Position numbers and translations under genes: made by a program. This document shows positions 55,063 to 55,640 of a stretch of 64,000 nt of DNA, piece after piece (positions within the stretch are counted from its first letter, which is position 1; every line of letters begins with the position of its first letter). Below the pieces are notes generated by a model, which worked only from the letters and a program-made list of their open reading frames with translations, ran no database searches and had not been told where the DNA came from. This DNA comes from Candidatus Aminicenantota bacterium (lineage in GTDB: Bacteria; Acidobacteriota; Aminicenantia; UBA2199), in contig JAPKZK010000138.1 in NCBI GenBank assembly GCA_026393835.1, forward strand, positions 1 to 64,000, given 5' to 3'.

Positions 55063-55091
55063 TTGATAATAATGGGCACTTCAATTAAAAT
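55063..55091 (+). promoter_or_regulatory. tadA promoter (near-leaderless)
   Basis: TTGATA (55063-55068), 17 nt, TAAAAT (55086-55091); the ATG at 55106 lies 14 nt behind the -10 box. Predicted leader about 7 nt, too short for a ribosome site, and none is present. Confidence 0.55.
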
Positions 55092-55105
55092 AGTTACTTA
55101 CAAAA

Positions 55106-55597
55106 ATGGAACAAGATCATTTATTTTTTATGGAAAAAGCGTTTGAGCAAGCAGAACTGGCCTACAGGGAGGGAGAGGTGCCGATAGGCGCGGTAATCGT
55201 ATTAAATAATGAAATCATCGGCAAAGGGTACAATTCCGTCATCAAAAATTCCGATCCCACGGCCCATGCAGAAATCATGGCCTTGCGAGCTGCAGGAAAA
55301 GCAGCGCAAAATTACCGCTTGCTGGATACGGCTATTTATGTCACCCTGGAACCCTGTTTCATGTGTTATGCCGCGTTAGTACATGCCCGGGTCAGGAATC
55401 TTTATTTTGGGGCAAGCGATCCCAAGGGCGGTATTTTTTCCACCGGCAAATTCGCTGCAATAAAAAATATTTTTAATCACACAATTGAAGCAAAATCTGG
55501 TATAATAGGGGATAAAGCTTCGAGACTTTTGCAAGAATTCTTCCAGGCCCGGAGGGGTGCCGGAGCGGTTGAACGGGACGGTCTCGAAAATCGTTGA
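55106..55597 (+). CDS. tadA: tRNA-specific adenosine deaminase TadA, 3' end inside a tRNA gene
   Basis: A 163-residue cytidine-deaminase-fold zinc enzyme that converts A34 to inosine in tRNA-Arg(ACG). Zinc/catalytic motif HAE at 54-56 and PCFMC at 83-87 (C84, C87), with GAV at 28-30. The canonical domain ends near residue 148; codons from about 149 to 163 (GAGAVERDGLENR) are formed by the first 47 nt of the tRNA-Ser gene that follows, so the C-terminal tail is a by-product of the overlap. A near-leaderless promoter drives the gene. Confidence 0.93.
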   Translation: MEQDHLFFMEKAFEQAELAYREGEVPIGAVIVLNNEIIGKGYNSVIKNSDPTAHAEIMALRAAGKAAQNYRLLDTAIYVTLEPCFMCYAALVHARVRNLYFGASDPKGGIFSTGKFAAIKNIFNHTIEAKSGIIGDKASRLLQEFFQARRGAGAVERDGLENR

Positions 55598-55640
55598 CCT
55601 GGTAACGGGTCCGTGGGTTCAAATCCCACCCCCTCCGCCA
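55551..55640 (+). tRNA. tRNA-Ser(CGA), CCA encoded
   Basis: A 90-nt class II tRNA. Acceptor stem GGAGGGG pairs with CCCCTCC, discriminator G, CCA encoded at 55638-55640. Anticodon stem ACGGT/ATCGT encloses loop CTCGAAA, giving anticodon CGA (reads UCG). A long variable arm with GACC/GGTC stem and T-arm GTGGG-TTCAAAT-CCCAC confirm the serine type. The first 47 nt also encode the end of tadA. It is likely cotranscribed with tadA and processed by RNase P. Confidence 0.95.

Follow-up and report, generated by a model that had tools for sequence, protein, structure and literature searches.

The window, the whole stretch of 64,000 nucleotides that was analysed, comes from a genome of the Candidatus Aminicenantes lineage (Acidobacteriota) and carries on its forward strand a tadA gene (55106..55597, 163 codons followed by TGA). 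The identity of the product as a predicted tRNA adenosine(34) deaminase is secure. It matches NF008113, the NCBIfam equivalog for TadA, with 171.3 bits against a cut-off of 150, and in an alignment of 34 TadA sequences the residues that form the deaminase motifs HAE and PCxxC (H54, E56, P83, C84 and C87) are invariant, as is Arg150. Sequence comparison places TadA enzymes as the closest solved structures, and the best fold match is E. coli TadA (PDB code 1z3a). The AlphaFold2 model has a helix at residues 135-156 and a tail, residues 153-163, with pLDDT below 50. As predicted from the open reading frame, the C-terminus ends ...RRGAGAVERDGLENR.

The gene for tRNA-Ser(CGA) lies on the same strand at 55551..55640 (ARAGORN; Rfam RF00005, 53.3 bits). 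It is intact, with seven of seven acceptor pairs and an encoded CCA, and has the cloverleaf, long variable arm and CGA anticodon of a type II tRNA. Across the genome 44 tRNA genes were detected, and none of the others encodes a serine tRNA with a CGA anticodon.

The two genes share 47 nucleotides (55551..55597), equivalent to tRNA nucleotides 1-47. This segment supplies the last two bases of codon 149 (55550-55552), codons 150-163 and the stop. The codons CGG AGG at 55550..55555, specifying Arg149 and Arg150 of the FFxxRR helix, are composed of one leader base and tRNA nucleotides 1-5. The tadA frame then reads GAGAVERDGLENR and finishes at a TGA (55595..55597) formed by tRNA nucleotides 45-47, directly 3' of the anticodon stem. 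A preliminary description of this DNA had tadA running 47 nt into a same-strand tRNA-Ser(CGA), with the last 15 or so residues being translated tRNA; every coordinate proves right, codon 149 lying partly and codons 150-163 wholly inside the tRNA. Because Arg150, invariant in the alignment, is encoded by tRNA nucleotides, the overlap is more than a loose tail.

Open reading frames of at least 80 amino acids enter 10 of the 44 tRNA genes of this genome on the same strand (10 ORFs); Pfam matches are confined to tadA and ispE. That the tadA overlap is in excess of chance is indicated by its retention at 16 of 22 family loci. In each of 85 overlapping loci the acceptor stem retains its seven pairs. 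Pair 5 shares its 5' base with the last position of codon 150 (Arg); 40 of the 85 loci have G-C there and 45 have A-T. The set is partly selected with a pattern demanding A or G at that position, and some loci in it are counted twice. Either pair gives an arginine codon, AGG or AGA. Such substitutions indicate that tadA and the tRNA are constrained simultaneously.

Conservation, displacement and recurrence

A search of 60 genomes, including that of the window, gave a set of 22 TadA loci (L001-L022) from the 34 genomes of the window's family; here and in the samples below, the loci are those retrieved from genomes that have a full-length TadA match. The preliminary description had proposed examining relatives for the overlap, and 16 of the 22 loci have it with tRNA-Ser(CGA), over 47-57 nt, in seven genera and at TadA identities down to about 52%. 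Elsewhere in the set, L003 has undetermined bases within the tRNA, and at L018 and L022 the tRNA is on the opposite strand and TadA terminates at FFKNKR or FFKNRR.

At L015, L017 and L020 the overlap is lost and the tRNA lies farther downstream, and here the tadA C-terminus is a copy of tRNA nucleotides 1-14. In L015 and L017 this copy is CGAAGGGGTGCCGGA, compared with CGGAGGGGTGCCGGA at the tRNA itself, the sole difference being a synonymous change of CGG to CGA (Arg); the L020 copy has one change more (RRRAGK). These copies look as expected for the fossil of a former overlap. Their survival as coding sequence although the tRNA has moved away suggests that the RR codons were retained for the protein after their role in the tRNA had ended. 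At L015 the promoter and the 5' part of tRNA-Ser also occur twice in the stretch that follows tadA and runs to where the intact tRNA ends, one copy leading into a broken tRNA.

Among 21 loci from the class beyond the family (L023-L043), three overlap, all in one family (f2) and by 149-155 nt. There tadA traverses the entire tRNA-Ser(CGA) and finds its stop in a following tRNA-Ser(GGA). The tRNA is absent from this position at six of the 21. Relatives that retain an earlier stop, as would be expected were the overlap to result from stop-codon loss, account for a further 12 of the 21, with the tadA stop no more than 45 nt before the tRNA.

Contigs were also scanned for codons of the type (L)xx(L)..FFxxRR running into a tRNA-Ser start, a pattern that covers one register. 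It returned 95 stretches, most of them TadA reading into tRNA-Ser and the remainder without a TadA frame at the junction. Those with TadA come from records named as Aminicenantes, Deltaproteobacteria and Syntrophia-type bacteria, Nitrospirota, Bacillota, WOR-3, Stahlbacteria, Caldisericota, Coprothermobacterota and Planctomycetota.

A sample drawn without regard to tRNA genes comprises 246 TadA loci in five phylum samples, each labelled by the phylum of its centre genome; from one search, with 175 matching genomes, 30 loci and a further 40 stretches were used, approximately one per family group. A same-strand tRNA-Ser occurs within 300 nt downstream of tadA at 151 of the 246; 49 of these overlap, four being pattern-chosen centre genomes (L249, L302, L306 and L341), and 102 do not. 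Expressed per locus with a nearby tRNA-Ser, overlaps number 22/56 in the Acidobacteriota sample, 4/30 in Bacillota, 9/21 in Desulfobacterota, 3/22 in Nitrospirota and 11/22 in WOR-3, values that are not phylum frequencies, four samples being centred on known overlapping genomes and the Acidobacteriota sample being dense in the window's family. Overlap lengths range from 1 to 155 nt and cluster at 14 nt (a UGA at tRNA nucleotides 12-14), 47-49 nt and 56-57 nt. On a TadA tree there are at least 20 changes of overlap state, a rough figure that derives from short TadA cores and FastTree. The preliminary description had also suggested examining whether TadA homologues end before this point, and most do; the median number of residues after FFxxxR is three in non-overlapping TadAs (n = 196) and 13 in overlapping ones (n = 49). 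Upstream of tadA, tRNA-Arg(ACG), the editing substrate of TadA, is present within 400 nt at 67 of the 246 loci.

A second case is found in the same genome. The ispE gene (TIGR00154, 229 bits; L173:642-1604, on contig C168 of genome G000) traverses a whole same-strand tRNA-Gln(TTG), 86 nt. Considering this locus and its relatives (L386-L410), ispE overlaps tRNA-Gln at 21 of 25, by 76-100 nt at 16 and by 10-11 nt at five; two loci lack the overlap and two are unreadable.

Predicted promoters

Promoter-like sites were scored at 19 of the 22 family loci with a generic sigma-70 scorer and shuffled controls, the promoters characteristic of the phylum being little known. The predicted tadA promoter in the window, TTGATA-17-TAAAAT at 55063..55091 on the forward strand, ends 14 nt before the ATG and similar sites are present in relatives. 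The interval from 55063 to 55106 presents no clear ribosome-binding site between the predicted promoter and the ATG, and the tadA mRNA may be nearly leaderless.

Where no tRNA-Arg lies upstream, a promoter-like site precedes tadA at 12 of 13 family loci (p ≤ 0.03), the exception being L003. At the six loci with tRNA-Arg(ACG) 22-111 nt upstream there is no such site before tadA (0/6), and at five of the six one precedes the tRNA-Arg (p ≤ 0.02; L012 has p = 0.10). Displaced tRNAs have a promoter-like site of their own in both of the two testable cases, with none of 200 shuffles as good. With sites preceding tadA or tRNA-Arg, and displaced tRNAs carrying their own, most of the family probably makes one shared tadA-tRNA RNA.

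Inside tadA the position differs between genera. A candidate tRNA promoter, the extended -10 element TGGTATAAT, is found at 55498..55506 on the forward strand, 44 nt before the tRNA. It falls within a 15-nt run that is the longest identical among L001, L003 and L004, sequences whose third codon positions are otherwise 29% identical. Under a null model of synonymous codons the p values are 0.007 (L001), 0.013 (L003) and 0.076 (L004). The element is conserved in the window's genus only. Since it is conserved there, part of the tRNA may arise without tadA mRNA, and this genus may thus add a tRNA-only transcript to the shared one. Weak sites are also seen inside tadA at L007 and L019 (p = 0.030 each against shuffles). 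Under the synonymous-codon null, promoters are not generally enriched at the tadA 3' end, four of 56 overlap representatives having p < 0.05. Comparison with control windows inside tadA gave an apparent enrichment (p = 0.007, 53 representatives), but conserved codons confound that comparison, and the effect vanished under the same null, the window's genus excepted.

The preliminary description had the enzyme level coupled to tRNA processing, and named a separate promoter for the tRNA as part of what would count against this. The claim has partial support. The promoter anatomy of most of the family agrees with shared transcription, whereas the internal extended -10 of the window's genus speaks against strict coupling; that element is a plausible separate promoter, conserved there alone. 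Termination of tadA transcripts ahead of the tRNA, also named as a contrary observation, cannot occur if the message is to include its stop codon, which lies inside the tRNA.

A proposed shared transcript and its possible fates

Our preferred reading, which we hold with moderate confidence, is that tadA and tRNA-Ser(CGA) probably constitute one transcription unit in which the final 47 nucleotides of the coding sequence serve a double purpose. On an intact transcript ribosomes would enter the tRNA and halt at its nucleotides 45-47, so preventing the 5' half from folding. When ribosomes no longer occupy it, the tRNA would fold and RNase P would cut before 55551 to yield the tRNA. That this cut would remove the tadA stop, as the preliminary description had it, follows from the anatomy, and the Arg149-Arg150 codons would go with it, so that cleavage would end the complete tadA message. 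Ribosomes trapped on the cut message would need rescue by tmRNA, and a tmRNA gene is present in the genome (157.8 bits). Each RNA molecule might in this manner support only a restricted amount of TadA synthesis and give no more than one tRNA. Extra tRNA probably comes from the internal extended -10 promoter in the window's genus.

How would such an arrangement arise? Most likely, where tadA and tRNA-Ser had long been neighbours, a short spacer and the tadA stop were repeatedly lost. TadA requires hardly anything after FFxxRR and the tRNA frame provides both RR and a stop, which would explain why the overlap was tolerated. Compaction of this kind is the favoured origin of the overlap, because length varies, most loci with a nearby tRNA lack the overlap and ispE has no link with tRNA editing.

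Several other explanations have to be considered. The overlap might be without consequence for expression if there were two transcripts, a tadA mRNA made from the upstream promoter and left unprocessed, and a tRNA made from a promoter inside tadA. The TGGTATAAT element, 44 nt before the tRNA and within the 15-nt run identical in L001, L003 and L004, is what such a model calls for, as are the p values of 0.007 and 0.013 obtained for L001 and L003 with the synonymous null. Conservation of the element is, however, restricted to the window's genus, and the overlapping genera as a group are without such sites. Moreover a tadA mRNA needs the stop inside the tRNA and so contains at least the tRNA 5' half, or, unless a terminator intervenes before 55640, the entire tRNA. 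We regard two independent transcripts as unlikely. Assembly error or a tRNA pseudogene would be a natural concern given that nearly all the sequences are MAGs, but an identical junction appears in independent MAGs from many studies, and the tRNA is single copy with its cloverleaf and CCA intact; artefact is therefore highly improbable.

A further alternative is an adaptive switch, with the level of TadA set by RNase P activity or by the rate of tRNA maturation. The recurrence of the overlap in several phyla, frequently in the same register, is in keeping with this, as are the removal of an invariant residue together with the stop by a single cut and the proximity of tRNA-Arg(ACG), the TadA substrate, at 67 of 246 loci. 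Against it, the tRNA that overlaps is not a TadA substrate, the genes do not overlap at 102 of the 151 loci where a tRNA-Ser is close by, and overlaps elsewhere are anything from 1 to 155 nt long. In addition ispE, unrelated to tRNA editing, overlaps tRNA-Gln likewise, which favours compaction. We judge a switch unlikely. Any regulatory role is putative, and compaction that happened repeatedly would be enough to account for the tadA-tRNA layout. A broader proposal is that of a recurrent design, one transcript with two fates, in which the coding end of a protein gene, stop included, is formed by a tRNA body and RNase P acts as an off-switch through which protein yield depends on tRNA maturation. 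It would apply to tadA in several phyla and to ispE in this lineage. We offer it tentatively and consider it doubtful.

Comparison with known systems

Bacterial co-transcripts of mRNA and tRNA are familiar, for example E. coli secG-leuU, where the frame ends before the tRNA and the cut leaves a complete message. As in such systems a protein gene and a tRNA would share one primary RNA to be separated by RNases; the promoter anatomy agrees with this, and the window's genus has the internal -10 as well. In contrast to the secG-leuU type, the tadA frame is not complete before the tRNA, ending at its nucleotides 45-47, and the stop and a conserved residue sit inside it. In mitochondria, tRNA punctuation means that tRNA excision sets the mRNA ends, and polyadenylation can complete stops lost at the cut. 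Where mitochondrial genes overlap, one transcript cannot give both products, and the same would apply here. The tadA case differs in that the cut message would have an incomplete codon 149, and in a bacterium; we know of no completion for a bacterial message cut within a codon in this way.

Same-strand overlapping protein genes can arise by stop-codon loss (e.g. PMC3887535). The tadA locus resembles such overlaps in that an upstream gene would have lost its stop and now ends at one inside its neighbour. Unlike in pairs of protein genes, the neighbour of tadA is a structured RNA, so that the C-terminus is fixed by tRNA folding and not by another protein. No description of a tadA/tRNA or ispE/tRNA overlap was found in the literature searched, which covers subscription journals thinly and includes part of PMC10454642.

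What sets the arrangement apart is that a structured, processed RNA encodes both the stop codon and an invariant residue of a protein gene, in a form kept over long evolutionary distances and reached many times. The layout makes competition between translation and RNase P testable on one molecule, and would be expected to generate non-stop mRNA naturally. There is a practical aspect also. Some annotation pipelines by default drop coding sequences that overlap tRNAs, and this could lose genes such as tadA and ispE.

Two observations concern the wider neighbourhood. A tRNA-Arg(ACG) is directly upstream of tadA at L009, L010, L012-L014, L016, L029, L031, L042 and others. In the Bacillota sample, L258, L259 and L369 each have a single run of tRNA-Ser(TGA), tRNA-Ser(GCT), tRNA-Arg(ACG), tRNA-Arg(CCT), tadA, tRNA-Ser(CGA) and tRNA-Ser(GGA), and portions of this run of Ser and Arg tRNAs, tadA and Ser tRNAs recur across most of that sample.
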